This document shows, piece by piece, positions 21,558 to 60,500 of a stretch of DNA of 64,000 bases. The stretch is taken from the NCBI RefSeq assembly GCF_003952665.1, contig NZ_CP017947.1, forward strand, positions 310,001 to 374,000. The letters run 5' to 3'. The translations under genes and the position numbers were made by a program. This DNA is from Bosea sp. Tri-49 (GTDB taxonomy: Bacteria > Pseudomonadota > Alphaproteobacteria > Rhizobiales > Beijerinckiaceae). Under the pieces are notes generated by a model. That model was not told where the DNA came from and did no database searches. It was given only the letters and a program-made list of their open reading frames with translations. Each line of letters starts with the position of its first letter. Within the stretch, counting starts at the first letter, position 1.

Positions 21558-21572
21558 GAACATAACTAGAAC
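21558..21572. promoter_or_regulatory. LexA (SOS) box, GAAC-N7-GAAC
   Basis: GAACATAACTAGAAC is a perfect alphaproteobacterial LexA direct repeat (GTTC-N7-GTTC on the other strand), 41 nt upstream of the 21614 gene. The same 15 bases recur at 60486-60500 before its paralogue. Confidence 0.75.
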
Positions 21573-21613
21573 GTATGAGCCAAGACGGAGTCAAGATATC
21601 GAGGGAGTTGCAT

Positions 21614-21922
21614 ATGGACCAGACCGAACTCGCGGACATGCACAAGGCCCAGCTGGTCGACCAGCTCCACATGGCTCAGCACGTCATGCAGGGGTTCACT
21701 CGAACGATCCTGCTCGTCAGCAAGACGATTAGCGGCGAGGATGTCGACGGAGCCGAGCTGACGGAGAAGGCCGCACTGATAATCGCCGAGATGCTTCTCA
21801 AGGAGGCGGCCGAGAAGCGAAAAGTCAACGACATCGGCGAAGCGGAGATTCGCGAGCGCGCCGTCGAGCAGTTCAGCATGGTGATCCGCGAGACGCTCCG
21901 CATGGGTCAGCCTCGGCAGTAG
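21614..21922 (+). CDS. 102-aa SOS-type hypothetical protein, copy A
   Basis: I do not recognise a family. It is a helical, charged cytoplasmic protein: TELADMHKAQLVDQLH, then QHVMQGFTRT, KAALIIAEMLLKEAAEK and IGEAEIRERAVEQF. By my count 62 of 102 residues match the minus-strand gene at 60135-60443, same length. I chose ATG 21614 because GGGAG lies 6 nt upstream, because the paralogue starts at the same residue, and because the LexA box at 21558-21572 would overlap a longer start. SOS induction is therefore expected. Confidence 0.75.
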   Translation: MDQTELADMHKAQLVDQLHMAQHVMQGFTRTILLVSKTISGEDVDGAELTEKAALIIAEMLLKEAAEKRKVNDIGEAEIRERAVEQFSMVIRETLRMGQPRQ

Positions 21923-30378: not shown

Positions 30379-32529
30379 TCAAGTGGCCGATCTGTCGGCA
30401 TCGCCAAACCCGCGCTGCAGGCTCTTGAGGTTTTCCGCAGCTTGAGCGACGGAACTGCTTGTAGAAGACGGTTCGCCAAGAGCCTGCATCATTATGGCGA
30501 AGGTCGCCTCCTGTTCGTCCCCGGCAGCCGCGATGATCCCGCGCAGATCGCAATCTTCGCCGACCGGCGCCGGCGGTGTCCCGAGGCTCAATTCCCCGGA
30601 AGGCTTCGTACTCACCCGAGGTGCAGAGGCCTTGACGGGCTCTGTCCGCTGCGTGGGGCTGGTCATGGTGACTGGCGACATATCCGGAGGTTTCCAGTTT
30701 GCCGGTGCTCTCTCCGAGGCCGCCCGCTCGGCCTTTGCAGCGGTTCTGGGGAGCTGCTCCGTTTCGCTTTGCCGCGCATGCGCCGATGGGCTGATCGTCC
30801 CGCCAAGTGGCTTATCCAGCCAGCCATCGAGGCGCGGCAGTGCGGGTGGAGACCCCTTCGCGGCCTCATAGAGCCGGCGATACGGCTTGTCGCGATAGTG
30901 CCGAATCTTGGTGAGCTCGAACGATGGGGAGTTCTTCACCATCAGGATCGAGAGCCGCGCCGACATCTCGCGCAGCTCGAGCGGGCTTCGGAGCGGGCGC
31001 GGCGTGTAGTGCGGTGCCCAGACGCGTGGCGAGAAGACCCCCTGCCCGGGCCGCATGACCGGCGTCTTGTAGATCTGCGTGGTCTCGCCGAGCATCTCCG
31101 ACACGAATCCCGAGGTTTCCAGGTCGTTGATCTGGATGAACAGCTTGATCTGCGAGCCCGAGACCGTGGTGATGCGGGTGTTGCGGCCATAGAGTTCGTC
31201 GAGCTGGGCGATGTCCTGCATAATAATCGCCATGCGGAAGCCATAGCCGGCGGAGATCGTGATTTTCGAGATCAGCGAGTCCATCCGCCCGACATGGTAG
31301 AACTCATCGAGCATGAGCAGGACCTGATGCGGTTCGTCGGGCCCTGGGATTTTTTCCATCAGCAGGTCGTGGATCTGCTGGAACAGGATGCGGATCAGCG
31401 GCCGGAAGATCGCGAGTTCCGCGATGCTGCAGCCGATGAAGATGGTCATCGGGTAGCGGCGCAATGCGCGGATGTCGAAGTCGGAGGTCTCGGTCGCGGC
31501 CGAAATCAGTCCGTTGTTCCACAGGCTCATCGCCATGTTGATGTTGAACACGGCGCTGTTGCGGGTTTCCGGCTCGAGCGCGATGTACTGGTTGAAGCTG
31601 TCGACGACCCAGGTCGGCAGATGCTCGCTTTCAGTCTTCACGATCGCCCGCAGGACGGTCGAGATGTCCTTGCCGGTCGTCGTCATGCGCGCAACGCTGC
31701 GCATGTGCTGTGCGGCGGCCGTCAGCGGCGACGAGAGTACGTACCCGATCAGCGCCGAGAGCAGGAGGCGCCCTGCCCCGGCCCAAGTGTCGTCGGCCTT
31801 TTCGGGAATAACAAAGCTCGCGACGACAAGGCAGTCCGTTGCCATACGCTCGTCGCGGCGCACGAAATCGAGCGGATTGTAGCGATGGGTATCGGGTGAG
31901 CCCGGCGAGAACATGAAGACCTTGTTGCCCTGCTGCTGCCGGTGGCCGGCGAGGGCTTCGAAATTCTCGCGCTTTGGATCGAAGAACACGGCCGAGCCCT
32001 GCCAGAGATAGCCGTTCGGCAGCACAAAGCCGGTGCCCTTGCCCGACCGGGACGGTCCGACGACGAGGATATGAGCCGGCTCGTCCGAGCGGATGGTGAC
32101 GCCGTTCAGCGTGCCGAGGATGATGCCTCTTTTGGCGGTGAGGCCCTGTTTCGCGGCCTCCATGAAGGTTCCGAAGCGGGCCGCGCCAAACGGCATCTGC
32201 CGACGATTGATCAGCCCGATGACGACGAGGCCGACACCGAGCGCGACGACGGCGCCGGCAGCATAGCCGGCACGGATCAGCGCCTCGGTGCGGGTCGGCG
32301 GAAAGATCAGCCGCTCATGGAAGTGCCGCCAGGCGATGAAGGCGAAATCAGAGGAGCGGTCGGCGTTCTGCATCCGAAGCAAGGCCCAACGCTGCGATCC
32401 TTCGCTCGGAAACCGCGACGGCGCCCAGCGCAGGCCAACAACCACCTCATAGGCGAGGCCCCAGAGCAGCCAGAAGGCAATCAGCGCCAGGATGGCAATG
32501 CCGATCCTATAGACGACGATGCGCGCCAT
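30379..32529 (-). CDS. virD4: Type IV coupling protein VirD4/TraG
   Basis: 716 aa. Hexameric inner-membrane ATPase that hands DNA or protein substrates to the T4SS. Two N-terminal membrane segments (VVYRIGIAILALIAFWLLWG; AAGAVVALGVGLVVIGLI), Walker A VVGPSRSGKG, the early motif SAVFFDPKRENF and Walker B-like VLLMLDEFYHVG with AIIMQDIAQL. The Pro/Ser/Ala-rich C-terminal 150 residues are variable. It overlaps virB11 by 23 nt and is the last gene of the operon. With virD4 present the system is equipped for conjugation, although no relaxase is in the window. Confidence 0.93.
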   Translation of the reverse strand: MARIVVYRIGIAILALIAFWLLWGLAYEVVVGLRWAPSRFPSEGSQRWALLRMQNADRSSDFAFIAWRHFHERLIFPPTRTEALIRAGYAAGAVVALGVGLVVIGLINRRQMPFGAARFGTFMEAAKQGLTAKRGIILGTLNGVTIRSDEPAHILVVGPSRSGKGTGFVLPNGYLWQGSAVFFDPKRENFEALAGHRQQQGNKVFMFSPGSPDTHRYNPLDFVRRDERMATDCLVVASFVIPEKADDTWAGAGRLLLSALIGYVLSSPLTAAAQHMRSVARMTTTGKDISTVLRAIVKTESEHLPTWVVDSFNQYIALEPETRNSAVFNINMAMSLWNNGLISAATETSDFDIRALRRYPMTIFIGCSIAELAIFRPLIRILFQQIHDLLMEKIPGPDEPHQVLLMLDEFYHVGRMDSLISKITISAGYGFRMAIIMQDIAQLDELYGRNTRITTVSGSQIKLFIQINDLETSGFVSEMLGETTQIYKTPVMRPGQGVFSPRVWAPHYTPRPLRSPLELREMSARLSILMVKNSPSFELTKIRHYRDKPYRRLYEAAKGSPPALPRLDGWLDKPLGGTISPSAHARQSETEQLPRTAAKAERAASERAPANWKPPDMSPVTMTSPTQRTEPVKASAPRVSTKPSGELSLGTPPAPVGEDCDLRGIIAAAGDEQEATFAIMMQALGEPSSTSSSVAQAAENLKSLQRGFGDADRSAT

Positions 32530-33565
32530 GGCCCCCCTCCTCTCCCTGGCGCTCCTTGGGCCATTCCGCCATCCGCGCGAAATAAATCGCCGACGTGCCG
32601 CGCCAGCCGCCGATCTTGGTCTGCTGGATCACGATCGGCAGGACCGACTTGATGTAGGCGATAATCTCCTCGCGCTTCAGGCCGAGCCCGGCCTGCATCA
32701 CCATGAGTGCAAGCTGCTCGAAGGCGCCGGTGGGGCTGTCGGCATGAACCGTGGTGATGCTGCCGGGATGGCCGGTGTTGATCGCACGGAGAAAGGAATA
32801 GGCCTCCGCGCCCCGGATCTCGCCGAGGAAGATCCGGTCGGGGCGCAGGCGCAGCGACGCCTGCAGCAGCATCTCGACGGTGATGCGCGCCTCGCCCTGG
32901 TCGCCTTTCGAGGCGATCAGCGGCAGATAGTTCTGCTGGATCGGCCTGACCTCGCGGGTATCCTCGATGGTGATGATCCGCTCGTCGGCCGGAACCTCTT
33001 TGAGGATCGCGTTGAGGAAGGTGGTCTTGCCTGAGCTGGTGCCGCCGGAGAGCAGGATCGAATACCGACTGACCACGGCGAGCTTGATAAAATCCTCGAT
33101 CCGTCCCGCATCGAGATGCTCGCAGAGCGCCTGGTCGGCTTCGGTCAGAAACCCCTCCCCGGCCGTCTCCACCTGCTTGAACGAGCCGAGCTTGCGGTAA
33201 TCGTCGAGTCGCATCTCCTTGATCACCTGCTTGCGGATGGCGAAGGCACCGCCAGCTGTAGTCGCCGGCGGAATGACGCCCTGGAAGCGTTCGCCAGTCG
33301 GAAGTGCCGCTGACAACAGCGGGTGCTCCTCGTTGACACTCTGCCCGGAATGGCCGGCGATGCGCTCGGCGAGATGGCGGATCGCCTGCTCGGTCAGTTG
33401 CGGAACGTCGTGACGCTCCATCGCGGATTGGCCGAAGCGCTCGACCCAGATCACGCCCGGGCCATTGGCGCAGATCTCGACGACCTGGTCGTCGTCCAGC
33501 CAAGGCCGCAGAGGCGAAAGCGCGCGGTCAAGGAAGACCGTGAGGTTTCTGGATGGTGCGCTCAC
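32507..33565 (-). CDS. virB11: T4SS ATPase VirB11
   Basis: 352 aa, normal length. Hexameric traffic ATPase on the inner face of the membrane. Seen: LRPWLDDDQVVEICANGPG, Walker A LLSGGTSSGKTTFLNA, the Asp box IITIEDTREV, RPDRIFLGEIRGAEAYSFLR (Walker B) and INTGHPGSITTVHADSP (His box). GTG start; overlaps virB10 by 38 nt and virD4 by 23 nt, so the three are co-translated. Confidence 0.95.
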   Translation of the reverse strand: MSAPSRNLTVFLDRALSPLRPWLDDDQVVEICANGPGVIWVERFGQSAMERHDVPQLTEQAIRHLAERIAGHSGQSVNEEHPLLSAALPTGERFQGVIPPATTAGGAFAIRKQVIKEMRLDDYRKLGSFKQVETAGEGFLTEADQALCEHLDAGRIEDFIKLAVVSRYSILLSGGTSSGKTTFLNAILKEVPADERIITIEDTREVRPIQQNYLPLIASKGDQGEARITVEMLLQASLRLRPDRIFLGEIRGAEAYSFLRAINTGHPGSITTVHADSPTGAFEQLALMVMQAGLGLKREEIIAYIKSVLPIVIQQTKIGGWRGTSAIYFARMAEWPKERQGEEGGHGAHRRL

Positions 33566-34874
33566 GCCTGAGCTCCCGCAGCGCCTCCTTCACCGGATCG
33601 GGATAAAGGGACGAGAAATCGAGATCCCGCCGGACGAAGACGATGATCCGGATACCCTGGTCGAGATGGATCGTCGGCGGGATGTTGATCGAATTCTTGA
33701 GCGCCTCCTGGGCGATGTTGGTCAAGGTTTGCGAGACATTCTGGGCGGCGATCTGCCTCGCCTGCAGGGAGAGCTGGTTCTGCCCGACGCCGGTCTGGGT
33801 CTGCGTGACCGCGCCAGTGACGGGGTCGGTCGTGGTGACGACCGTGCCATTGCCGGTGCTGTCGTAGTTCTGGCCGAAGCCGCTGAGGAACTGCGCGGCG
33901 CCGCCGACGAGGGACAGCATGATCGCCGCGCCGAAGCGCTCAAGATAATGGTTGTCGACGGTGCCGGCGCTGCCGGCCCGGCCGAGATCGTCAGTGCCGT
34001 TCGAACCGAGCTGGATCGAGACGCCGTCGGAACGCAGCAATCGTGTCCAGACGACGAAGACACGGGTCTGGCCGCGGGTCAGGCCGGATTTGTACTCGCC
34101 GACGAGCCGGCTGCCGGCCGGGATCAGGATGCGTCGGCCGTCGTACGACCAGACATTTTCGGTAACGACGGCACGCACCATGCCGGGCAGGTCGCTCTGG
34201 ACGGCGGTCTCCAGCACGCCGCGGATCAGCGTGCCCTGGGCGACCAACGCATCGATCCGATTGTTCCTGGTTGCGCGCGAGATATCGACGCCGGCGGCCG
34301 ACACCGAGGCGAGGAAGCGGCGATTGGGATCATCGTCTGCGGCCGTCGCGGTTCCCGATGAGCTCTCAAGATTCCCGGCACCGGCGGCCGTCGCACTATT
34401 GTCCGAGATCACCTGCGGGGCGCGCAGACGCTCCCATTTGCGGCGTTCCTCTTCCGCCAGCCGCTGGCGTTCGAACTCGGCCAGACGGCGCGCCTCGTCG
34501 TCGTTAGCCGCTGCGGTCGGGAGGGGAGGTTCGGGCGCGGGTGGCGGCTGGATCGTCTGGGGCGGTGGTGGCGGAGGAGCCGGCGGTTCGACCGGCGCTT
34601 GCGGGATGACGATCGTGCCCTGGTCGGTCTGGGGCCGCGGCGTCGACAGCGACGGCGCCGGAAACTGCGTCGTCGTAAACTCCTCCTTGTCTGGCGTGGT
34701 CATGATGGTCGGGCGCTGATTGGTCGTGCGATAAAGCAGCCAGCCGGCCACGACGAGCGCTCCAGCCGGAATGCCGACCGTAAGCAGGCGGCCGAGCACG
34801 GTGCGGCCGCGGGCGACCGAGGTCGCGGCCGCGGCCTCCAGCTCGAAAGCGCGATAGTCGTCAGCGCTCGGCAT
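33528..34874 (-). CDS. virB10: T4SS core-complex protein VirB10
   Basis: 448 aa. Spans the inner membrane once (VGIPAGALVVAGWLLYRTT), then a Pro-rich periplasmic linker (VEPPAPPPPPPQTIQPPPAP), then the TrbI/VirB10 beta-barrel domain: TLIRGVLETAVQSDLPGMVR, RILIPAGSRLVGEYKSG, FVVWTRLLRSDGVSIQLGS. It joins inner and outer membrane parts of the channel. 9 nt after virB9. Confidence 0.95.
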   Translation of the reverse strand: MPSADDYRAFELEAAAATSVARGRTVLGRLLTVGIPAGALVVAGWLLYRTTNQRPTIMTTPDKEEFTTTQFPAPSLSTPRPQTDQGTIVIPQAPVEPPAPPPPPPQTIQPPPAPEPPLPTAAANDDEARRLAEFERQRLAEEERRKWERLRAPQVISDNSATAAGAGNLESSSGTATAADDDPNRRFLASVSAAGVDISRATRNNRIDALVAQGTLIRGVLETAVQSDLPGMVRAVVTENVWSYDGRRILIPAGSRLVGEYKSGLTRGQTRVFVVWTRLLRSDGVSIQLGSNGTDDLGRAGSAGTVDNHYLERFGAAIMLSLVGGAAQFLSGFGQNYDSTGNGTVVTTTDPVTGAVTQTQTGVGQNQLSLQARQIAAQNVSQTLTNIAQEALKNSINIPPTIHLDQGIRIIVFVRRDLDFSSLYPDPVKEALRELRRERTIQKPHGLP

Positions 34875-34883
34875 CGCTTCTCC

Positions 34884-35675
34884 TCATTTGCCGGTGGCGC
34901 CGATGCGCTGCGGCGCGTAGGGCTCGAGCCCCGTGGGCTCGTGCAGGTTGGTGCGGCGGCGGTTGAAAATGCAGGTCGCATCCTGGCCATTGCGCAGCGT
35001 CCACTGCGCCGCGACCTTGTCGACGACGACATAAGGGCCTTCCGTTCGGAAATTAACCAGGCTCTCGTTGCGGTCGCCGTCGACGATGTAGATCGCCGGC
35101 GTCTCGCCTTCGAAGCGGAACCAGGTCTTGGTCCCGTCGTCGAACACCGTCATCGGCTTGTTGGCCGAGGCGCCCTTATAGCCATAGTCGCTATTGGCGT
35201 TGGCGATGTTGAGGGCCTTGAGATTGGGATGGGCCGCGCGATCTTTGGCGGTTGCGAGCAGACGCGCATCGGCCTCGTCATCCGGGAAGCGGAAGCGCAC
35301 GGCGTAGGTCTGGTCCTGTGCGGGGTGCGTGTTCGAGCGCAGCAGGAAGACATAGACGCGCTTGGTGGTGACGACATTGAGGTTCGACAGGGCGTTCTTC
35401 TCGACCGGCTTGACGAAGATGATGTCGCCCTTGCGGTTGGGCTCGACCTTCCAGGCGATCGCGTCGCCAAGCGCCAGCGTCTCGATCTTCTCGTCGGACT
35501 GAAGCTGGATCATCGTCGAGGTGCCGTAGCTCGCGTCGATCGCCGTGACATTGTCGCGGTTATAGGTGACGTCACGGATCCGGGCGTCGATCCGGCCAGG
35601 CCGCGGCGTCGCCTCGGCGAAGGCTGCGGAGATCGTCAGAGCTGTGATCGCGAGGCCGAGCAGAGTGCGCCGCAT
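34884..35675 (-). CDS. virB9: T4SS core-complex protein VirB9
   Basis: 263 aa from ATG 35675, which begins a clear signal peptide (MRRTLLGLAITALTISAAFA) and overlaps the virB8 stop (TGATG); a longer frame adds no signal. Periplasmic/outer-membrane core protein with VirB7 and VirB10. Seen: LGDAIAWKVEPNRKGDIIFV, NLNVVTTKRVYVFLL and the C-terminal WFRFEGETPAIYIVDGD. Confidence 0.94.
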   Translation of the reverse strand: MRRTLLGLAITALTISAAFAEATPRPGRIDARIRDVTYNRDNVTAIDASYGTSTMIQLQSDEKIETLALGDAIAWKVEPNRKGDIIFVKPVEKNALSNLNVVTTKRVYVFLLRSNTHPAQDQTYAVRFRFPDDEADARLLATAKDRAAHPNLKALNIANANSDYGYKGASANKPMTVFDDGTKTWFRFEGETPAIYIVDGDRNESLVNFRTEGPYVVVDKVAAQWTLRNGQDATCIFNRRRTNLHEPTGLEPYAPQRIGATGK

Positions 35676-36391
35676 CACGGCTGGCTCCCTGCCGTGCCCG
35701 GTGACGGAGCCGTCTCCTGGTCGCGGCGATATTCGAGTGCCTGGAATCCGAGCGGATTGTCGAAGCGCCATTGGTTGCGCATCGGTGTCGCGGTGTAGCG
35801 GAAGCGCACGAGCGAGACCCAGTGTCGGGTCAGGATGTTGGTCGCCGATTTCTGATCGGTCGAGAAGCGCACCAGGGCCGTGCGGTGGTTCGGGAAGGTC
35901 ACCGATTTGATGGTGACGGCAACCTCGGTGTTCGAGCCGAACAGCTTGACCGGATTGTTCGGATTCGCCGGCGAATAGATCTCGGTGAGTTCGCGCGAGG
36001 CGTCGCCGGCCGAGAGCAGCTGGGCGAGGTCGAAATTGTCCTTGAGTGCACGCGGATCATAGGTCTCGCGCGCCTTGATATAGCGCACGACGCTGAACAT
36101 GGTGACGGCTTCGTCCTGCGTCAGCGCGCCCTCGGCCATCGGACGCTTGACCTCGACGAAGCCCGTCGTCTTGTCGACCACGACCATATAGGGCTCGTAG
36201 GTCTTGAGCGGCACGAGCAAGGCAAGCAGCCCGAGCGCGACGACGGCAACGACGGTCATCACCGCGGCGACGATCCAGGCGAGGGCCCGTGAATTCCGAT
36301 TACGGCGGGCGAGATCATGTTCCCAGGTCGCGCCCTCGGCGTAATAGCGCGGATCGACCCGAGGTGATTCCGATGCGGTGACCTCGCTCAT
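35675..36391 (-). CDS. virB8: T4SS inner-membrane protein VirB8
   Basis: 238 aa. Short cytoplasmic start, one membrane segment (WIVAAVMTVVAVVALGLLAL), then the NTF2-like periplasmic domain: VPLKTYEPYMVVVDKTTGFV, DEAVTMFSVVRYIKARETYD and WVSLVRFRYTATPM. It nucleates the assembly. ATGA overlap with virB6 and TGATG overlap with virB9. The frame could be read further upstream into virB6 but that part is antisense-like noise. Confidence 0.95.
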   Translation of the reverse strand: MSEVTASESPRVDPRYYAEGATWEHDLARRNRNSRALAWIVAAVMTVVAVVALGLLALLVPLKTYEPYMVVVDKTTGFVEVKRPMAEGALTQDEAVTMFSVVRYIKARETYDPRALKDNFDLAQLLSAGDASRELTEIYSPANPNNPVKLFGSNTEVAVTIKSVTFPNHRTALVRFSTDQKSATNILTRHWVSLVRFRYTATPMRNQWRFDNPLGFQALEYRRDQETAPSPGTAGSQP

Positions 36392-37521
36392 GACCGCCCT
36401 CCTCGCTCGCCGGTTCCGGGCGCGGCAGCCTGATTGCGAATCTGGTCGGCGAGCCGGCGGAATTCGGGGGTCTCGGCCCAGGAGCCCGCGCGCAAGCCGA
36501 CGCGGGCACGCTGACGGGCGGTGAGTTCCTCGCGCCGCGACAGCGAGGCTGGTCTGAACGGATTGCGCAGATCGAGCCGGGTCCGGTTGGCGGCGAGGCC
36601 AAGGCGATAGCCTGTCGCGGTCGCGAGCACGGCGCCGATCCGCGGCGCGTGGACAGGAACGCCGCCGGCGATCGCCGCGGCGACGTTGTTGATCTGAGCG
36701 AGCAGCAGAATGCCGATGATGGCGAGCAGAACGACCGGACCGATCGTCGCCCAGGTCGCGGACTTGCTGCCGGCGACGCCGTTCAGCGCATCGATCGATT
36801 GCTGGATCAGCGAGACGTAGAAGGCGAGGAAGGCGTAGACGAGGATCTGCACCACGAAATACTGCGCGATCGCGCCGAGCCAGCCGCTGAAGAAGCGGCT
36901 CGTCACGCCGAACAGCAGCAGGATGATGAAGACCGGCGCGAGCGCGAGCAGCAGCCACATGAACATCTTCGAGAGGATGATCAGGAAGATCGCGAAGCCG
37001 ATCAGGATCGCCATCGCGACATAGAAGACGGCGGCGAAGATGTAGGGTCCCCAATTTGTGATGCCGGCATTCTGCAGGAAGGCTTCGGTGGCGCTGTTCG
37101 TCGTGTCCCACATGTTCTGCAGGGCATTCTGGACGCCGTTGACCGAGGTGAGGTTCGCCGAGGTACCGGTGTTGTTGGCGGTGGTGACGACGCTGAGCAG
37201 AGCGTTGCCGATGGCTGAGGGGCCGCTGTTCATCGCGTCGTAGACGAGGGTCTGGAAGTCGCTCCAGCTCGTCGCTAGCGCGTAGATCAGGAAGGCCCGA
37301 AACAGCCGGAAGGCATGGTCGGCCGGGCCGCCGGTCGCGGTTCCCTGCCAGATGCCGACACCCCATAAGATCACATAGAGCGTGAGCAGGAGCCCGGCGA
37401 CGCTGGTGGCGCCGCCAGAGGTCGCGGCGTTCGCCAAAGCCTGGTAGGCGCTCGAGACGTAAGTCTCGCCGATCTGATCGACAGATTGCAGGAGCGTGGT
37501 GACGCTGAAGGACTTGGCCAT
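36388..37521 (-). CDS. virB6: T4SS polytopic inner-membrane protein VirB6
   Basis: 377 aa from ATG 37521; the frame extends further upstream but that part overlaps the lipoprotein gene in a different frame and is not VirB6-like. At least six hydrophobic segments, including GLLLTLYVILWGVGIWQG, FYVAMAILIGFAIFLIILSK, WLLLALAPVFIILLLFGV and LLAIIGILLLAQINNV: TrbL/VirB6 family. The C-terminal 60 residues are Arg-rich and cytoplasmic. Confidence 0.92.
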   Translation of the reverse strand: MAKSFSVTTLLQSVDQIGETYVSSAYQALANAATSGGATSVAGLLLTLYVILWGVGIWQGTATGGPADHAFRLFRAFLIYALATSWSDFQTLVYDAMNSGPSAIGNALLSVVTTANNTGTSANLTSVNGVQNALQNMWDTTNSATEAFLQNAGITNWGPYIFAAVFYVAMAILIGFAIFLIILSKMFMWLLLALAPVFIILLLFGVTSRFFSGWLGAIAQYFVVQILVYAFLAFYVSLIQQSIDALNGVAGSKSATWATIGPVVLLAIIGILLLAQINNVAAAIAGGVPVHAPRIGAVLATATGYRLGLAANRTRLDLRNPFRPASLSRREELTARQRARVGLRAGSWAETPEFRRLADQIRNQAAAPGTGERGGRS

Positions 37522-37529
37522 CGTCGTCC

Positions 37530-37724
37530 TCAGATCGGCCGCATCGGGCCGCAGGGTGTGAGTGAGGTGAACGCGGCCAGCGGCAGTGATGGGGCGCCCT
37601 CGCGGGATGCGATCGAGGCCGCGTCCTCGTCGGCCGAGCACGGCGCCTTCAGCGGCTTGTAGGCGCAGCCGCCGAGAAGGCCTGCGAGCAGCGCGAGGGT
37701 CGTCAGCCTGCGCGCGAGGATCAC
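37530..37724 (-). CDS. VirB7-like small lipoprotein
   Basis: 64 aa. Short signal and lipobox (LTTLALLAGLLGGC, Cys 20), then AYKPLKAPCSADEDAAS and the C-terminus TPCGPMRPI. Small lipoproteins ending in a CGPxRPI-like motif are common between virB5 and virB6 in alphaproteobacterial systems and take the VirB7 place. GTG 37724 forms a GTGA overlap with the stop of an upstream ORF. 8 nt before virB6. Confidence 0.65.
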   Translation of the reverse strand: MILARRLTTLALLAGLLGGCAYKPLKAPCSADEDAASIASREGAPSLPLAAFTSLTPCGPMRPI

Positions 37725-37918
37725 GGCACCGGCGCCTTCGGCTGTGTGAAGGCATGGCGCGGGACGCTGCCTTTGCCGCATCGTCCGAACTTTGCTGGGT
37801 ATCGGGTGTTGCCGGGCGGTTCGACGGGACTGCCGAAGAGCCGATCGCAGCCGCGACGAAGGCGACGACCAATCCGCCAAGACACCACAGAACGATCTTG
37901 CCGGTATCGGGCCCTCAT
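37721..37918 (-). CDS. Small ORF linking virB5 and the lipoprotein gene
   Basis: 65 aa. Its ATG overlaps the virB5 stop (ATGA) and its stop overlaps the lipoprotein start (GTGA), which is how real genes of this operon are joined. Yet the product is Arg-rich and unlike a T4SS protein, while a different frame, the one continuing virB5 past its TGA, encodes a good membrane segment (KIVLWCLGGLVVAFVAAAIG). Which frame is used cannot be decided here. Confidence 0.3.
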   Translation of the reverse strand: MRARYRQDRSVVSWRIGRRLRRGCDRLFGSPVEPPGNTRYPAKFGRCGKGSVPRHAFTQPKAPVP

Positions 37919-38622
37919 TGGGTGAACTTCATGGCGCGCGCGACGGCCGATTCCGCCGCGAGACGATCGAGATTGGCCTGGTTGGCCGCAGCCGCCGCGG
38001 TGTTGACCGTACCGGTGAGCTCGTTGATCGTCTGGCCGGTCTGGACCTGAACCTGGGTGTTCTGGTCGACGCTGCCCTTGAGATCCTGGGCCTTTCCGAT
38101 CTCCTGGCCGCCTTGGGTGAAGGCTTGCGAGCGCTGCTTCACAGCGCCTTGCGTGGAATCGATCAGGCCCGACAGGGTCGCCGCGACGTTCACGGAGTTC
38201 TTGTAGGCGGTGTCGACCGGATGGGTCTTGCCGCTCACCATCCCGGTGATCGTCTGTACGAGCTGGAGCCCGTTGATCAGAGTCGAGACGATATTCTGCG
38301 ATCCTGAACCCATTCCGGCGAAAGACAGCGTCCCGCCCGAGATCACCGAGCCGAGCGAGGGGGCCGACCCCATGGAGAAGCCACCGCCGAGCGCCATCTG
38401 CGCGAGCGAGCCTTGCGCCTGAGACGAGCGATCCCCGGTGACGGCGGCCAGCGTCTTTTGCGTGAACTGCATGATTTGCTGGTCGGCAGTGAGGATCTGC
38501 CGTGTCGTCGAAGCGATTTCCTGGGCTTTGATGAGATTGGCACCGTCACGGGTCGGGACCTGCGCGAAGACCGGACTGGTAATCGCGATCGCAAGGCCTG
38601 AGAGCAGCAAGCGGAGGCGCAT
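37915..38622 (-). CDS. virB5: T4SS minor pilin VirB5
   Basis: 235 aa. Signal peptide (LLLSGLAIAITSPVFAQVP), then a helical protein with long amphipathic helices: TRDGANLIKAQEIASTTRQI, LTADQQIMQFTQKTLAAVTG and TGTVNTAAAAANQANLDRLA. Fits VirB5/TrbJ, which sits at the pilus tip. Length and position before virB6 agree. Confidence 0.85.
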   Translation of the reverse strand: MRLRLLLSGLAIAITSPVFAQVPTRDGANLIKAQEIASTTRQILTADQQIMQFTQKTLAAVTGDRSSQAQGSLAQMALGGGFSMGSAPSLGSVISGGTLSFAGMGSGSQNIVSTLINGLQLVQTITGMVSGKTHPVDTAYKNSVNVAATLSGLIDSTQGAVKQRSQAFTQGGQEIGKAQDLKGSVDQNTQVQVQTGQTINELTGTVNTAAAAANQANLDRLAAESAVARAMKFTQ

Positions 38623-38633
38623 CGATCTCTCCC

Positions 38634-39464
38634 TTATCGGTTGCTGGCGGCAGTGGCCGCGTTCTGGGTCTGCTCGAGGAAGAACAGGACGTTGCCAGCG
38701 GTATCGACATAGCGTGGCGTGACACAGGCCGGATCGCCTGAGGTGCCGGCTTCCGGCGACGGACAGTTCGACGTGGAGCGACAGGGATCGAGCGCGCTCC
38801 CTGAACCGGCCGTGCCAGCGGGACAGACCGTTCCCGTTGACGCCGGGTGGTCGGGACTACCTGCCCGCATCCCACCGGCGGCACGGCTTCCGTCGCTGAT
38901 GCGCGCGAGATTGAGGGCATTCAGCGCCGTCACCCATAAATTCGTGGAGTTGATCGCCTCGTTCCAGGCGAGGTTGTTCTGGATCCGGGCCGAGCTGTTT
39001 GCATCAAGGGCCGCCATCACCGTGTCAGTCGCGCCGATCTGCTGCCCCGTCGTGCGAAAGCCATTCTGCGCCGCCTGCAGGGTCGAACGGCTGGCATCGA
39101 GACCGCCGACGACGTTGCCAGCGGACTGGAAGAGCGTCTGGTCGTTGAGGGCCGCGCCCTTGGCACCGGCAGTGGGCGTGACGGAACTCTCTGGGCTGTA
39201 GGCCTGGATCTTGCGGGCACCGTCACCGCTCCGCGGCTGCACGGTCGGGTTGGTGACGTTGGCCTTCTTGCCCGTCGTCACGGCGCATTTGACGCCCTTA
39301 TTAGCCTCTTTGCGCTGACTTCTGATCGGAACGAGCTTGACCGTCGTCCCGGCGGTCTCCGATTGCTTCGTCAGTAGGGCGGCGTCGTTGACGGGGACAT
39401 TGGCAAGCGTCGGCGGCACGCCGAGCAACGTGATCATCGTGACGATGAGGTGCGTCCGTTTCAT
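38634..39464 (-). CDS. Second secreted VirB5-like/T4SS accessory protein
   Basis: 276 aa. Signal peptide (LIVTMITLLGVPPTLANVP), a middle helix region (RSTLQAAQNGFRTTGQQIGA, WNEAINSTNLWVTALNALN) and a C-terminal part with four Cys (TVCPAGTAGSG, CRSTSNCPSP, DPACVTPRY) ending in AGNVLFFLEQTQNAATAA. It overlaps virB4 by ATGA and precedes virB5 by 11 nt. Not a known VirB protein; a diverged VirB5 paralogue or pilus-associated protein is my best guess. Confidence 0.6.
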   Translation of the reverse strand: MKRTHLIVTMITLLGVPPTLANVPVNDAALLTKQSETAGTTVKLVPIRSQRKEANKGVKCAVTTGKKANVTNPTVQPRSGDGARKIQAYSPESSVTPTAGAKGAALNDQTLFQSAGNVVGGLDASRSTLQAAQNGFRTTGQQIGATDTVMAALDANSSARIQNNLAWNEAINSTNLWVTALNALNLARISDGSRAAGGMRAGSPDHPASTGTVCPAGTAGSGSALDPCRSTSNCPSPEAGTSGDPACVTPRYVDTAGNVLFFLEQTQNAATAASNR

Positions 39465-41872
39465 GATGCCTCCCTCCCGAGGAAGATCGGCAGCCAGATT
39501 GTAGGGTCGTCACCCACGCGGGCGCGCAGCGCGTCGAGCTCGGCCACCGTCTCGGTCCGGCCGGACAAGACCTTGATGAGATCGGGCATGCCGGCGAGGT
39601 TCAACCGTGCCACCACGCTGTCGCGCCCGTGCTTGATCAGGAAGGAGCGGCTTTCCGGGGCGGTCGAACGAATCCACGCGACCTCGCGGCCGGACAGACG
39701 GAAGGCCTGGGCGTAGCTGTCGTCGTCGGCCTTCGGGTTCGGGAAGAAGATGTTGGTGCTGGTCTGTTCGATCAGCGTGTTCGACGATCTCGAGCGAACG
39801 ATATCGGCCGCCGATTGCGTGCCGAAGCCGATGATGCCGTTTTGCTTGCGGATCGTCTTCAGCTTGTCGCGGATGAAGAAGGCGAAGACATCGTCGTCGA
39901 GCAGGCGCCAGCCCTCGTCGAGGAAGATCATGACCGGATCGCCGGTCAAGAGCTCCTCGGTCCGATGGAAGATGTACATCAGCGCCGCGGTGCGGATGAC
40001 CGGATCGCCGAGCACCCGCGTCATGTCGAAGCCGAACACGCTCGAGATCGAGAACCGGTCCTCGTCATTGTCGAAGAGCCAGCCGCGCTGGTCGGCCCGC
40101 ATCCAGCTTTCGAGCCGGGCGAGCAGATCCCCCTCCCCTGCCCGGATGCGGCCGCGCAGCAGGGTCGAGAAGGCTTTCAGCGTCCGCCCTTCGGGCCCGG
40201 CACCGAGCGAGGCCGCGATTGCGTTGCGGATCACCTGCTCCTCGGAGGCCGAGAGCTCGCCGCCATTCGCCGGCCGCAGCATGAAGGCGAAGAGCTCGAA
40301 CAGGAATTCGCGGTTGGGTGCGGTATCGGGCAGCGAGAGTGGGTTGAAGCCGGTCGCCTCGCCCGGGACGAGTGTTTCGTATTGGCCGCCGAGCGCGCGG
40401 ATGAAGATCTCGGCGCCGCGGTCCTTGTCGACGAAGACGAGCTTTGGCCGCGGTTCGATCCGCTGGGTCTGCGCCGCGATGAAGGACAGGAACACCGTCT
40501 TGCCCGAGCCCGTCGGGCCGACCACGGTGAAATTGCCGATGTCCCGGATATGGTGGTTGTAATAATAGGCCGTCTGCGAGGTCGTCTCGAAGACCGAGAT
40601 CGCCGGTCCCCAATGATTGCCGGCTGGCCGGCCGCTCGGATAGTTGTGCAGGGAGGTCAGTCCCGCAAAATTCTTCGACGAGAGGATCGACTTGCGCGCG
40701 ATATAGGCGAAATTCCCTGGAAGTTGGGCCCAGAAGGCCGGCTCGCAATTGAGGTCCTCGCGCACCCAGGTGACCGAGCGATCGGTGAGTGCAGCCCCAA
40801 TCGCCGTGACTGCCGCGCCCACCTCGGCAAGATCGCGACCAAGGCACATCACGGTCATGTGGTGCTCGCCATAGATCGCCTCGGAGGCGAGGAGCTCGTC
40901 GCGCGCTGCGTCGAGATGCTCGGCGACGATCGAGCCGGCTTCGTCCGACATGTCGACCTGGCGGGAGACGCGCTCGATCTGCTTGGCCGCCTCCGGCCGG
41001 TCGACGATCGCAAAGCTCTGCGTCGCGATGAACTCGTGCGGGACCCGCAGGAGATTGTCGAAGGAGCCGGGGCCGGTTTGGGCCGGGTATTCCCGGATCG
41101 AGACCATCGCGCCGAAGCGCGTGTCGGCGGGGCCGGCGCCACGGAGCTCGATCGCGTTGCGGCCGAAGAAGATGCGCTTCATTGCCAGCGCATCCGCCAG
41201 ATCCATGCGCGGCAGATGCATCGGCCGCGGCTGGCCGCCGTTCAGCAACTGGACCAGGAATTCCAGCGGTTCGGAGAACCAGACGTCGCCGCGACTGACG
41301 ACGCCGAGCTGCCGGATTCCGTAGCCCGAGAGGTTCGCGCGGACGGCGGTCGCGACATCGCGCAGCTCGGTGAGCGCTGTTTGCTGTGCGACCGACGCGC
41401 CCGCCTCGTCCGTGCGGCCGAGCAGCTTCGCCATCATGAATTCGAAGGTGCCGGCCTGGCCCTGTAGCGGCCGGCGAACGATCGTAAGGTACAGATCGTT
41501 GACGAACATCCGCCGTTTCGATAGCGCCGCGTTGTAGCGTTCGTCGAGCTCCCGGCAGAACGGATTGTCGAAGCTGGAGTCGATCCGGGGCTGAATCTCG
41601 CGCCGCACGATATGCGAGACGAGTGCGAAGCGAGAATTCGCCAAGGTGCGCACGACATCGTTGCGGCCGAGCAGGTGCGCATTGACCTCGCTGATGTCCG
41701 AGGTCTCGAAGGAATAGCCTTCGAGCTTGAAGACGGTCAGCACCAACCCGTTGAGCGTGCGGATGACGTGATCGTCGACATGTCGGGTGTAGGGTACATG
41801 TGAGCTGACCGGCCGCTCGCGCCGCGAGACCGCCCCGAAAGTCAGTTCGTCGAGAAGGGCGCGGGCGACCAT
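39461..41872 (-). CDS. virB4: T4SS ATPase VirB4
   Basis: 803 aa, full length. Largest T4SS ATPase, needed for pilus assembly and transfer. N-terminal domain (HVDDHVIRTLNGLVLTVFKL), Walker A FTVVGPTGSGKTVFLSFIA, KLVFVDKDRGAEIFIRALGG, Walker B DPVMIFLDEGWRLLDDD and IGFGTQSAADIVRSRSSNTL. ATG 41872 lies 6 nt after virB3. Confidence 0.96.
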   Translation of the reverse strand: MVARALLDELTFGAVSRRERPVSSHVPYTRHVDDHVIRTLNGLVLTVFKLEGYSFETSDISEVNAHLLGRNDVVRTLANSRFALVSHIVRREIQPRIDSSFDNPFCRELDERYNAALSKRRMFVNDLYLTIVRRPLQGQAGTFEFMMAKLLGRTDEAGASVAQQTALTELRDVATAVRANLSGYGIRQLGVVSRGDVWFSEPLEFLVQLLNGGQPRPMHLPRMDLADALAMKRIFFGRNAIELRGAGPADTRFGAMVSIREYPAQTGPGSFDNLLRVPHEFIATQSFAIVDRPEAAKQIERVSRQVDMSDEAGSIVAEHLDAARDELLASEAIYGEHHMTVMCLGRDLAEVGAAVTAIGAALTDRSVTWVREDLNCEPAFWAQLPGNFAYIARKSILSSKNFAGLTSLHNYPSGRPAGNHWGPAISVFETTSQTAYYYNHHIRDIGNFTVVGPTGSGKTVFLSFIAAQTQRIEPRPKLVFVDKDRGAEIFIRALGGQYETLVPGEATGFNPLSLPDTAPNREFLFELFAFMLRPANGGELSASEEQVIRNAIAASLGAGPEGRTLKAFSTLLRGRIRAGEGDLLARLESWMRADQRGWLFDNDEDRFSISSVFGFDMTRVLGDPVIRTAALMYIFHRTEELLTGDPVMIFLDEGWRLLDDDVFAFFIRDKLKTIRKQNGIIGFGTQSAADIVRSRSSNTLIEQTSTNIFFPNPKADDDSYAQAFRLSGREVAWIRSTAPESRSFLIKHGRDSVVARLNLAGMPDLIKVLSGRTETVAELDALRARVGDDPTIWLPIFLGREAS

Positions 41873-50636: not shown

Positions 50637-51851
50637 ATGCTGAAAGCGCGTAATACCCCCTCCTCCGAGGAGCCGGGCCGCCTCGCGGTCGCAGATATCA
50701 TCGCTGGCGACGGATCAGCGCTGTCAACCGAGCTGCACGCGATGCGTGAAGCGCTATTCCCCCCTGTCTCGAAAAAGACCTTGCGATCATTTTCCTCTAT
50801 CGAGGCCGCAAAGCTCATTGGAATTGCGGACGCTTATCTTCGGCAAGTGTCTCTCCAAGGCAAGGGACCGCAGCCGGCAATCACTGCCGGCGGTCGTCGA
50901 TCGTATACTCTCGACCAGATCAACGAGCTTCGCGCGGTTCTGGAAGAGGGCTCCAAGAACAAACGCTATGTTCCTCACCGCCGAGGGACCGAGCACTGCC
51001 AAGTCTTGGCAGCTGTCAACTTCAAGGGGGGCTCCGGTAAGACGACAACCGCTTCGCACCTCGCGCAATATCTCGCACTGCACGGCTATCGCGTTCTGGC
51101 GATCGACCTCGATCCGCAGGCCTCGCTTACCGCCCTTCATGGCTATCAACCTGAGTACGACATTCAGGCCAACGAGACGATGTACGCGGCCGTTCGCTAC
51201 GACGATGAGCGGCGGCCGCTGCGGGATATCATCCGCAAGACCTACTTCGCGGGGCTCGATCTCGTCCCGGGCAATCTGGAGCTCATGGAGTTCGAGCACG
51301 ACACGCCGCGCGCCCTCGCCGAGCGGTCGACAGAACCATTCTTCGGACGAGTCGCCACTGCCTTGGGTTCGGTGGCCGATGACTACGACGTCATGGTTGT
51401 CGACTGCCCTCCCCAACTCGGCTTCCTGACACTTGGCGCGCTTTGCGCCGCAACAGGTCTCCTCATCACGGTTCATCCGCAGATGTTGGACGTCATGTCG
51501 ATGTGTCAGTTCCTGTTAATGGCCTCGGACATGCTCAAGGTCGTCCAGACCTCTGGTGGTACGCTCGATTACGATTTCATCCGTTACATCGTGACGCGGT
51601 TCGAGCCGGCTGACGCTCCGCAAACGCAGATGGTTGCTTTCATGAGGTCCCTGTTCAGAGACCGGGTGCTCAACAGCACGATGGTGAAATCGACGGCTGT
51701 CTCGGACGCTGGGTTGTCCAAGCAGACGCTGTATGAGGTCGGCAGGGAGAATTTCTCCAAACAAACCTACGATCGCGCGGTCGAGTCCCTTGACGCCGTG
51801 AACGGCGAGATTGAGCGCCTGATCGCTCAAGCGTGGGGGCGTGCTGCATGA
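50637..51851 (+). CDS. repA: Plasmid partition ATPase RepA (ParA family)
   Basis: 404 aa, typical for RepA of repABC plasmids. Partition ATPase and autorepressor. N-terminal helix-turn-helix-type region (FSSIEAAKLIGIADAYLRQV), deviant Walker A AVNFKGGSGKTTTASHLAQY, RVLAIDLDPQASLTALHG (Walker A'), and VMVVDCPPQLGFLTLGAL (Walker B). The stop overlaps the repD start by ATGA. Confidence 0.95.
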   Translation: MLKARNTPSSEEPGRLAVADIIAGDGSALSTELHAMREALFPPVSKKTLRSFSSIEAAKLIGIADAYLRQVSLQGKGPQPAITAGGRRSYTLDQINELRAVLEEGSKNKRYVPHRRGTEHCQVLAAVNFKGGSGKTTTASHLAQYLALHGYRVLAIDLDPQASLTALHGYQPEYDIQANETMYAAVRYDDERRPLRDIIRKTYFAGLDLVPGNLELMEFEHDTPRALAERSTEPFFGRVATALGSVADDYDVMVVDCPPQLGFLTLGALCAATGLLITVHPQMLDVMSMCQFLLMASDMLKVVQTSGGTLDYDFIRYIVTRFEPADAPQTQMVAFMRSLFRDRVLNSTMVKSTAVSDAGLSKQTLYEVGRENFSKQTYDRAVESLDAVNGEIERLIAQAWGRAA

Positions 51852-52138
51852 GCGCTCGAGACCATCGTCGGTATCTTCCGGAGCGAGTTGCCACCTGGCA
51901 ACTCGCCCGCTTGTATCGCCCCGCTTTCAAGATCCGCCATGCCGGCCGCAAAATTCCGCGTCCGCTTTCTCCGGACCAAGGTTGGGACGGCGCCAGGTGG
52001 CGTCGCTTTACGTGCATCGCCAGCGGCGCGTCGCAACTGGACGCACTCTCATCTTGTCTGCCCTTCGAGTTGCCAGGTGGCAACTCGAAGGCTGGAGCCG
52101 GTGCAACCGCGGTCAGCGGAGGGAGTGTGCGACCATGA
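51848..52138 (+). CDS. RepD-like small ORF between repA and repB, containing parS sites
   Basis: 96 aa. Starts with an ATGA overlap to repA and ends with an ATGA overlap to repB, so the three are linked for translation. Product is basic and Trp-containing (RYLPERVATWQLARLYR, FELPGGNSKAGAG); the parS palindromes are read as ATWQLA and LPGGNS. A small ORF named repD in this place, holding parS, is known from Agrobacterium repABC plasmids (pTAR, Ti). No sequence similarity to a family is visible. Its main job may be to keep translation running across the parS sites. Confidence 0.6.
   Translation: MSARDHRRYLPERVATWQLARLYRPAFKIRHAGRKIPRPLSPDQGWDGARWRRFTCIASGASQLDALSSCLPFELPGGNSKAGAGATAVSGGSVRP
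51885..51904. other. parS site 1
   Basis: GAGTTGCCACCTGGCAACTC, an 18-of-20 palindrome (only the central CC breaks symmetry), inside repD. Matches the repABC centromere pattern GTT...AAC bound by RepB. Confidence 0.8.
52067..52086. other. parS site 2
   Basis: GAGTTGCCAGGTGGCAACTC; the symmetry extends to 28 bp (52063-52090) with only the central GG breaking it. Inside repD, 49 nt before repB. Confidence 0.8.
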
Positions 52139-53133
52139 GTCGAAAGGACACTCTTCGCGCGATGCTCACCCGCCGTACTGACGAGTTGCCAGGTGGCAAC
52201 TCGTCAGTTGCGACGCCTCCAGCAACGCCTCTGCAGCATGTTCGAGCTGGCGCTGTGGGCGCGATGGGGCGCTCGCTTGAACACATCGCGTCTGCTGCCG
52301 AGCGCGCAAAAGCGTTGATCGCATCAGGCGCATCCGTCATCGAAATCGCGCCGGATAAGCTGACGAGTTCGTTTGCTCAGGATCGCCTCGACGACGAGGG
52401 CATCGAGCAGACGACGCTCTATACGGCGATCAAGGAATCTGGTCAGAAAAGTCCGATCCTTGTCCGGCCGGATCCCAGCAAGGCTGAGCACTTCCAGATC
52501 GCCTATGGTCACCGGCGGGCAAGGATTCTTCGCCTGCTTGACCGGCCAGTCCGTGCGGTCGTCCAGAACCTGTCTGACGAAGAGTTGGTCGTCATTCAGG
52601 GTCAGGAGAATTCGGCCCGGAAGGATCTGAGCTATATCGAGCGCGGCCTCTTTGCTCTGACTCTCGAGGAGAGGGGGTTCGAGCGCGCGGTCATTATGTC
52701 AGCGCTGAGCATGGAGAAGACCCAGCTTTCGAGGCTGCTGGCGCTTACGAAGTCCATATCCAAAGACCTCATCGTCGCGATAGGCCCCGCGTCGAAAGCC
52801 GGGAGGCCGAGATGGACGGCATTTGCGGAGCGGCTTGAGGCAATCGACGACAGGTCGCGGCTCGACGGACTGCTTTCCAGTCCAGAGTTCAAGGATGCTG
52901 ATAGCGATCAGCGCTTTCTCCTGGCATTCGGCGCATTGGCTCCGAGGCGGCCGACGAAGGAGAAAAAAGTCATTCTGAGAGCTGAGGCGGGTGAGCGAAT
53001 CGCCACCATTGAGCGGACAAAGAAAACATTGTCGGTCGTGGTCGATACCTCGGCGTCATCGGCATTCGGGGAGTTCGTCGCGGCGCAACTCCCGGAACTT
53101 TTTCGCCAATTTCAGTCGAAAGGAGTGGCCTGA
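52135..53133 (+). CDS. repB: Plasmid partition protein RepB (ParB family)
   Basis: 332 aa from ATG 52135, with GGAGGG upstream and the repD stop overlapping. ParB-like centromere-binding protein. Seen: APDKLTSSFAQDRLDDEG, the ParB nuclease-like motif IAYGHRRARILRLLDRPVRA, QGQENSARKDLSYIERGLFA, and a helix-turn-helix region AVIMSALSMEKTQLSRLLAL. A third parS palindrome lies inside its own codons 17-23 (ELPGGNS). Confidence 0.94.
   Translation: MSRKDTLRAMLTRRTDELPGGNSSVATPPATPLQHVRAGAVGAMGRSLEHIASAAERAKALIASGASVIEIAPDKLTSSFAQDRLDDEGIEQTTLYTAIKESGQKSPILVRPDPSKAEHFQIAYGHRRARILRLLDRPVRAVVQNLSDEELVVIQGQENSARKDLSYIERGLFALTLEERGFERAVIMSALSMEKTQLSRLLALTKSISKDLIVAIGPASKAGRPRWTAFAERLEAIDDRSRLDGLLSSPEFKDADSDQRFLLAFGALAPRRPTKEKKVILRAEAGERIATIERTKKTLSVVVDTSASSAFGEFVAAQLPELFRQFQSKGVA
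52183..52202. other. parS site 3, inside repB
   Basis: GAGTTGCCAGGTGGCAACTC again, with flanking TGAC/GTCA giving 28-bp symmetry (52179-52206). It is read in frame by repB as ELPGGNS. Confidence 0.8.
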
Positions 53134-53162
53134 CGAAGCAGGTTACAACGTAAGAGGCCGCA

Positions 53163-53212
53163 AAAGAAAAAGGCCCCCAGAACGAGTTCCGGAAGCCCTT
53201 CTCCTGTGTAGC
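53163..53212 (-). ncRNA. Counter-transcribed incompatibility RNA (ctRNA/IncA) in the repB-repC gap
   Basis: Minus strand. A perfect -35 TTGACA (53247-53242), 17-nt spacer and -10 GATTCT (53224-53219) predict a start near 53212. A terminator follows: GGCTTCCGGAAC (53197-53186) pairs, with G-U pairs, with GTTCTGGGGGCC (53183-53172), then TTTTTCTTT. The RNA would be about 50 nt, the size and position of known repABC ctRNAs that repress repC by antisense pairing with its leader. Confidence 0.75.
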
Positions 53213-53314
53213 AACTAGAGAATCACACTTCCGCGAATCGCTGTCAAGAGTCACGTCGAACGCAGTGTCGTTTTGGCGAGCCCAATTCTTTTGCCTAACC
53301 ACAGGTAAAGGAAC

Positions 53315-54544
53315 ATGGTTTCGCACATCTCAACGACGCCCTTTGGGCGGCGAACGCTGACGCTTGCGCATGTGGCAAGCCAGGCGGACGCGAAGGATAG
53401 ACCGCCGGAGAAAGCGGTCCACAAATGGAACATCTTCCGCGCGATCTGCATGGCGAAGAACCGTCTGGGGGTGACCGAGCGCGCCCTGGCGGTCCTGGAC
53501 GCCCTGCTGACGTTTCACCCGGAGACAGTCCTGACAGGGGAGGGGCTGGTGGTCTTTCCCTCCAACCAGCAGCTCTGCCTGCGGGCGCATGGCATGTCGC
53601 CGGCGACGTTGCGACGTCATCTCGCGGTCCTGGTCGACTGTGGCTTGATCATCCGGCGCGATAGCCCGAACGGGAAGCGCTATGCCCGCAAGGGCAGGGG
53701 AGGGGAGATCGAGCTCGCTTTCGGCTTCGACCTGGCGCCACTGGTTGTCCGCGCCGAGGAATTCGAAGCGCTGGCGGAAGAGGTCCTGGCTGAAGACCGG
53801 GCTCTGAAGCTCGCGCGCGAGCGGATTACAATCTGTCGGCGGGACATCTGCAAGATGATCGCGACGGGCATCGAAGAGGGCGTTCCGACGCGAAGGGATG
53901 GCCGGGGGCCGGCCAACTGGGCCGAACTGCATGAGCTCTATAGGGGCATTGTCGGCCGGCTTCCGCGGACCGCCACGCGAACGCTGCTCGAAGAGATCGC
54001 GACCGAGCTGTCGCTGCTTGCCGACGAAATCCTCAACCTTCTGGAGATGCACATTAAAACTCAGAATCCGAGCGGCAATGAGTCTCATTCTGAGCGTCAC
54101 AAACAGAATTCAAAACCAGACTCTCTTTTTGATCTTGAACCACGCTCTCCAGAGAGCAGGGGGGCGATTGTCGCGTTCGATCCTGAACCGGAGCGGATGC
54201 CGGACAGGACGTATCCCTTGGGGATGGTCTTGGACGCCTGTCCCGACATTATCGACTACAGTCGCGGTGGCATCGGCAATTGGCGCGACTTCCAGGCGGC
54301 GGTCGCTGTGGTTCGGCCGATGCTGGGAATCAGTCCGAGCGCCTGGTTCGATGCGCAAACCGTCATGGGCGAAAGCGACGCGGCCGTCGTCGTGGCCGCC
54401 ATTCTGCAGAGGGGAGAAGCGATCAGCAGTGCCGGCGGCTATCTGCGCGGCCTGACCCGCAAGGCCGCAGCGGGGGAATTCTCTCTGGGACCGATGCTGA
54501 TGGCCCTGATCGGCAGCAGAAAGCGGGAGAAGCAACGTGCCTAG
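53315..54544 (+). CDS. repC: Replication initiator RepC
   Basis: 409 aa. Essential initiator of repABC replicons; acts in cis on an origin inside its own gene. Seen: N-terminal KWNIFRAICMAKNRLGVTER, ALLTFHPETVLTGEGLVVFP, SNQQLCLRAHGMSPATLRRH (winged-helix) and the C-terminal RPMLGISPSAWFDAQTVMG and GGYLRGLTRKAAAGEF. ATG 53315 with AAGGA close upstream. The leader 53134-53314 carries the ctRNA on the other strand. Confidence 0.95.
   Translation: MVSHISTTPFGRRTLTLAHVASQADAKDRPPEKAVHKWNIFRAICMAKNRLGVTERALAVLDALLTFHPETVLTGEGLVVFPSNQQLCLRAHGMSPATLRRHLAVLVDCGLIIRRDSPNGKRYARKGRGGEIELAFGFDLAPLVVRAEEFEALAEEVLAEDRALKLARERITICRRDICKMIATGIEEGVPTRRDGRGPANWAELHELYRGIVGRLPRTATRTLLEEIATELSLLADEILNLLEMHIKTQNPSGNESHSERHKQNSKPDSLFDLEPRSPESRGAIVAFDPEPERMPDRTYPLGMVLDACPDIIDYSRGGIGNWRDFQAAVAVVRPMLGISPSAWFDAQTVMGESDAAVVVAAILQRGEAISSAGGYLRGLTRKAAAGEFSLGPMLMALIGSRKREKQRA
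54045..54150. other. Probable oriV (AT-rich segment inside repC)
   Basis: The stretch 54045-54150 is clearly richer in A/T than its surroundings and encodes the low-complexity linker of RepC (HIKTQNPSGNESHSERHK). In repABC plasmids the origin lies in such an AT-rich part of repC. Placement is by analogy. Confidence 0.45.
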
Positions 54545-60443: not shown

Positions 60444-60485
60444 CTGGCTTCTCCCTCGATGGCTTGACTCCGTCGCCGCCGATGC

Positions 60486-60500
60486 GTTCTAGTTATGTTC
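60486..60500. promoter_or_regulatory. LexA (SOS) box, GTTC-N7-GTTC, divergent
   Basis: GTTCTAGTTATGTTC, perfect consensus and identical (on the other strand) to the box at 21558-21572. It sits between the minus-strand 102-aa gene and the plus-strand 60520 gene that leads to the SRAP gene, so it probably controls both sides. Confidence 0.8.

Follow-up and report, generated by a model that had tools for sequence, protein, structure and literature searches.

SidA is a small division inhibitor that Caulobacter makes in response to DNA damage. DidA, another small damage-induced division inhibitor, has been described in the same genus (PMC4211646), and the SOS (LexA) box of Caulobacter crescentus is GTTCN7GTTC (PMC9578287, PMC12700426). 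SOS control also extends to the imuABC mutagenesis cassettes, which are plasmid-borne in rhizobia (PMC4151985). Here we describe a family of small proteins, family A, encoded twice on a plasmid of Bosea sp. Tri-49, together with four accompanying families, B–E.

Bosea shares with the C. crescentus LexA regulon the same direct-repeat box. The two differ in that families A–E do not appear in the available text of the regulon's description, and in that Bosea, unlike the regulon as set out there, repeats one promoter module many times with differing genes on its right arm. The resemblance to imuABC lies in SOS-type genes on a plasmid, which here also carries a boxed, presumably ImuA-like gene; as far as the excerpted account goes, imuABC encodes polymerases and their helpers, whereas the Bosea set consists of small uncharacterised proteins. 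Family A, if its putative induction holds, resembles SidA and DidA as a small damage-induced alphaproteobacterial protein and differs, at the level of the accounts available, in its predicted three-helix fold. The umuDC (DNA polymerase V) operons offer a further parallel: the same TTGACTC/box promoter precedes UmuD-like genes of Bosea and, at one locus, in Bosea lupini, the divergent right arm has family A as its last gene. Unlike umuDC, families A and B could be assigned to no known family. No paper on LexA control in Bosea or on families A–E was found in the open-licence literature by title and start of abstract. Families A–E are put forward here as five uncharacterised small-protein families that probably belong to the DNA-damage response of Alphaproteobacteria.

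Two family A genes share a box and a leader

The window, meaning the whole 64-kb stretch analysed, covers bases 310001–374000 of the 454,531-bp contig C2, in a genome of 6.45 Mb and two contigs. The family A genes and their boxes are as follows.

21558–21572, plus strand: LexA-type box GAACATAACTAGAAC of copy 1, pattern GAAC-N7-GAAC
21614–21922, plus strand: family A copy 1, 102 aa, by homology and a three-helix model
60135–60443, minus strand: family A copy 2, 102 aa, by homology to copy 1
60486–60500, minus strand: LexA-type box GAACATAACTAGAAC of copy 2, pattern GAAC-N7-GAAC

The original prediction described two paralogous 102-aa reading frames, about 61% identical, each behind the same 15 bases and a similar stretch up to the start codon, and this description holds throughout: both frames are present, 62 of 102 residues are identical (61%), the boxes match at 15/15 positions and the leaders, taken from 3 nt ahead of the box up to the ATG, at 48/60. 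The flanks are not conserved, with 36/68 aligned columns identical in the 60 bp upstream of the leader (shuffled mean 32, maximum 40) and 29/64 in the 60 bp downstream of the gene. Silent sites have diverged further, third codon positions being 58% identical and shared four-fold sites 11/28, and on these alignments the leader is conserved beyond silent sites. Copy 1 has an alternative upstream ATG at 21575, which in the list of open reading frames gives a 115-aa frame; we take 21614 as the start because homologues align to it. The ratio dN/dS is 0.35 between the two window copies and 0.19–0.35 across six pairs among four genes (B. lupini excluded), values that support purifying selection on family A. 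A protein search of the whole two-contig genome found no third copy.

The pattern GAAC-N7-GAAC matches the window exactly twice. Shuffled windows contain it 1.40 times on average and at least twice in 39 of 100 shuffles, and genome-wide it occurs 148 times against 106 for a reversed control. The extended box TGAGAACATAACNNGAAC, with up to three mismatches, has 24 genome sites against 5 for its control. It is in the context of the box, not in the bare pattern, that chance is exceeded. The single lexA match of the genome (L022) has a box, GAACACAAGGCGAAC, 71 nt upstream. A box, GAACAAAAAAAGAAC, also lies upstream of recA, which was recognised by sequence (L004/L054). The family A box shares its GAAC-N7-GAAC form with the boxes of these two SOS genes.

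Family A matches no described family

Family A has no match over cut-off in Pfam or NCBIfam and none in PADLOC, and nothing convincing in PHROGs, in agreement with the earlier description of a helical protein of no known family. The Pfam family DUF3482 (14.1 bits against a cut-off of 29.2) and the best PHROGs hit (E 0.0071) are both too weak to assign an identity. Toxin–antitoxin and anti-phage readings were considered, and PADLOC gave no match. A family A profile searched against PDB chains returned 0 matches at E up to 1. The structural model of copy 1 has three helices with a mean pLDDT of 91; comparison of the model gave generic helical matches only (Rop/Rom-like and PchB-like folds were considered), so we draw no functional claim from the structure.

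The box lies at the centre of a divergent promoter recurring across Bosea

At each of the two window boxes a −35-like element reads away from family A.

21588–21594, minus strand: TTGACTC (−35-like) of the leftward promoter at copy 1, by sequence and genus-wide motif
60464–60470, plus strand: TTGACTC (−35-like) of the promoter toward family B at copy 2, by sequence and genus-wide motif

Judged by its motifs, the box forms the centre of a divergent promoter, and the −35/−10 that can be recognised there points away from family A; its form is TTGACT-N13/14-GTTC-N7-GTTC. The motif TTGACTC-N11-14-GTTC-N7-GTTC occurs at 102 sites in 47 of the 67 Bosea genomes, and its reversed control at 0. A logo of 83 distinct promoters shows TTGACTC, GTTC-N7-GTTC and then TCAT with a purine-rich ribosome-binding stretch, and the TTGACN hexamer lies 13 or 14 nt from the box in 71 of them. 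These promoters contain 39 different box sequences, so the half-sites are kept while the spacer drifts. From the motif spacing, we infer that the box sits over the −10 and the start site of the leftward promoter. Both window copies have a gap of 15 nt between TTGACTC and the box, beyond the 11–14 nt range of the genus motif search; such a gap occurs in 3 of the 83 promoters, and even the leftward promoter may therefore be weak at the window copies. Toward family A, no rightward σ70 promoter was found with a consensus scanner or by eye, and the scanner missed the leftward promoter too.

Copies of the promoter occur on many different contigs and replicons within Bosea; in this genome they stand both on the chromosome-sized contig and on the plasmid. 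The earlier suggestion of selection for damage induction ‘on this replicon’ was thus too narrow.

Family B accompanies the promoter

On its left arm the promoter at copy 2 leads into a small gene and the remnant of another.

60520–60753, plus strand: family B gene, 77 aa, divergent from family A copy 2
60768–60939, plus strand: family D remnant, broken, with matches in two frames

Family B proteins are 70–80 aa long, and family D is Cys-rich. Within 200 nt, 77 of the 102 promoter sites lead into family B. Of the other 25, 22 were read, by eye and with UmuD-like genes recognised through their resemblance to the B. lupini gene: 7 lead into a UmuD-like frame (L204, L207, L220, L226, L227, L229, L234), 7 into family D (L044, L223, L225, L230, L233, L235, L239) and 8 into neither. 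The last 3 comprise the B. lupini umuDC-like operon and family D in Root483D1 and at C2:55376 of our genome.

Family B is present in 48 of the 67 Bosea genomes in a search that scored up to 87 candidates per genome. The Tri-49 genome has five clear copies, all five boxed, and a sixth match (C2:47112) that is a fragment. Across the genus, GTTC-N7-GTTC lies within 250 nt upstream of family B at 84 of 94 distinct places (85 of 95 rows, of which L069 and L077 are the same place in our genome), against 3 of 935 control windows, and its position is −34 to −38 in 62 of the 85. Seven of the 101 family B places stand outside this count, namely the fragment at C2:47112, five weak matches and G301:C19:76406, where a box is visible at L039:12582. 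We hold SOS control of family B to be very probable.

One conceivable reading is that the boxes before family A are chance matches, inherited by duplication and without regulatory role. A bare pattern expected 1.4 times per window would allow this, and the genus-wide promoter with its zero control matches, together with the family B box counts, already contradicts it; we regard chance as vanishingly improbable.

No box was found in ten of the family B rows, which include two strong matches, L110 (G318:C6:28752, E 1.1e-30) and L102 (G110:C1:14658, E 4.4e-28), neither of which has GTTC-N7-GTTC within 250 nt upstream. At L166 (G339:C1:301414) a family B-like gene lies on the right arm of the box, the reverse of the usual arrangement. 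In Root483D1, three boxes fall within 7 kb (L033, 1000–8600; boxes at 1259, 2418 and 7947), and the family B gene behind the second has an early stop. Blocks of these small genes thus appear to lie in clusters and to undergo decay.

Across the order, 24 of 397 sampled genomes, three of them Bosea, contain family B-like matches. A box lies within 300 nt at 6 of 24 non-Bosea places, drawn from 29 listed, against 0 of 166 in the control. The family- and order-level searches are samples in which 12–16 candidates at most were scored per genome and absences weigh little; on this sample, and by sequence, the tight coupling of family B to the box is mainly a Bosea trait.

A conserved promoter with a variable right arm

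The right arm at copy 2 continues, behind family A, with a further small gene.

59844–60131, minus strand: family C gene, zinc-ribbon-like, with two CxxC pairs

The genome has five copies of family C, none of them farther than about 0.4 kb from such a box; an internal stop interrupts one copy, and another is truncated. Across 106 distinct promoters, the first right-arm open reading frame belongs to family E in 28, to family C in 8 and to family A in 3, with other or single frames in 37 and none in 30; the rule asks for a frame of 50 aa, by which several single frames may be spurious, and the count leaves out L033, L034, L106 and L107, which are the same places as other loci. The right-arm start falls exactly 3 nt after GAGTCAA in 29 of the 106 (25 family E, four others). 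By these counts the right arm is variable and the promoter is kept, and because the right-arm genes alternate, what is conserved as a unit is not family A but the promoter, in most cases together with family B on its left.

Tentatively, with a confidence that falls a little short of even, we read this as a dispersed modular SOS cassette of Bosea, in which a divergent LexA-controlled promoter has an exchangeable right slot filled by families E, C and A, helicases and others. If so, new genes would gain damage induction by slotting into a ready-made operator, and family A would be one such recruit, its box retained even without the left gene. The locus would then offer a testable case of how a gene enters the SOS regulon, by joining an existing divergent operator as against evolving a box of its own.

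Family A in other genomes

With all candidates scored, family A is found in 4 of the 67 Bosea genomes, ours included, and it forms 40 protein clusters in a large protein database (alignment A3 omits four fragmentary or frameshifted proteins, P0016, P0018, P0039 and P0040). Each of the five genomic copies found occupies the right arm of a box. In three, the box stands directly before the gene, with about 40 nt between its end and the ATG; in the other two it is 1.0 and 2.3 kb away. By the original prediction, homologues lacking the box would count against it, and those of B. lupini and G338 have none directly upstream, the box standing before other genes. A UvrD/PcrA-like helicase (best NCBIfam match PcrA, 376 bits, under the cut-off of 911) comes first after the box in G338, and family A follows, 2.3 kb from the box. 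In B. lupini family A lies 1.0 kb to the right of the box, after a broken family E frame, and the left genes are UmuD-like (109.7 bits; NCBIfam Pol V UmuD cut-off 110) and UmuC-like (405.7 bits; cut-off 431). Left of copy 1 there is no family B or D match, left of copy 2 there are family B and the broken family D, and left of the Root483D1 gene there is family D.

Linkage of families A and B also appears in the protein database, where at least 11 of 38 family A proteins share the exact size of their longest contig with a family B protein, while the same test at 20 shifted lengths gave 0 or 1 coincidence each; the test excludes our own copies, uses 120 of 602 family B proteins and compares sizes, not contig names.

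SOS control of family A

From its sequence context, family A is likely to be under SOS control, and its genes are probably switched on by DNA damage. The reading we favour, and hold with fair confidence, joins family A to a LexA-repressed divergent promoter both of whose arms would be damage-induced. LexA bound at the single GAAC-N7-GAAC box would block both arms. In three copies the roughly 40 nt from box to ATG leave little room for an independent promoter plus a ribosome-binding site, and we infer that the family A transcript starts at or before the box. Once DNA damage had set off RecA-driven cleavage of LexA, the operator would be released and the cell would produce both the left-arm product and family A. 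On this view family A would be an accessory protein in the damage response, soluble and built of three helices, and would most probably work alongside the repair and translesion genes present at some of its loci (the UvrD-like helicase, the UmuDC-like genes and SRAP). In the two of five copies with the box 1.0–2.3 kb off, membership of family A in an operon is putative.

The original prediction of selection for damage induction stands in part: the form of the box, the linkage to the right arm in 5/5 copies and dN/dS below 1 agree with it, and the recognisable promoter, pointing to the opposite gene, does not. Another reading assigns box and promoter to the left gene alone, be it family B, family D or UmuD-like; family A, made constitutively from elsewhere, would adjoin that gene through descent of the block. 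The conserved −35/−10 on the leftward side only, the failure to find a rightward promoter, the rarity of family A on the right arm (3 of 106 promoters) and the two homologues lacking a box directly upstream all fit this account. It sits poorly with copy 1, which retains box and leader though no family B or D match lies there, with a leader better conserved than silent sites and with the little room that a promoter would have between box and ATG. On balance we think it unlikely that family A is such a bystander, and keep to joint repression of both arms as the preferred reading.

Plasmid context

The other genes of the window that bear on its setting are as follows.

30379–41872, minus strand: type IV secretion/conjugation genes (T4SS-DNA_transf coupling protein, T2SSE ATPase, CagE/TrbE/VirB ATPase)
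50637–54544, plus strand: repABC-type genes (ParA-like, RepB PF07506, RP-C PF03428), by Pfam
55267–56430, minus strand: phage-integrase family gene, between the rep region and family A copy 2
57440–58642, plus strand: DUF1612/HTH_13 gene, between the rep region and family A copy 2
58697–59412, plus strand: Gp49-like (PF05973) gene, then an HTH gene
61124–61906, plus strand: SRAP (SOS response associated peptidase) gene, PF02586, 64.8 bits

The repABC-type genes mark C2 as a repABC-type plasmid, and 50637–54544 is likely its origin region. This setting is what a further reading draws on, namely that a mobile or plasmid element, not recognised as such, carries the block, and that family A serves the element with SOS timing, in maintenance, transfer or an anti-host function, and not in repair. 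The window's own repABC-type, T4SS-like and integrase genes, the patchy distribution of family A (4 of 67 Bosea genomes) and the several broken cassette genes, as in DNA subject to gain and loss, are consistent with this. Against it, searches of 72,556 plasmid and 50,697 phage records and of the IMG/VR contigs gave no family A match; records near the window's genome are possibly absent from these collections. We consider a role as cargo of this kind distinctly unlikely, and a part in the host's damage response remains the reading we favour.

The order of the Gp49-like and HTH genes is one that we take to be a HigBA-type toxin–antitoxin layout. The SRAP gene lies beyond family B on the same strand. 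Elsewhere on the plasmid, one boxed gene (L064, G000:C2:265760) resembles, in our estimation, ImuA, and another (L065, G000:C2:434836) encodes a UvrD-like helicase whose start is nearly identical to that of the G338 helicase before family A.
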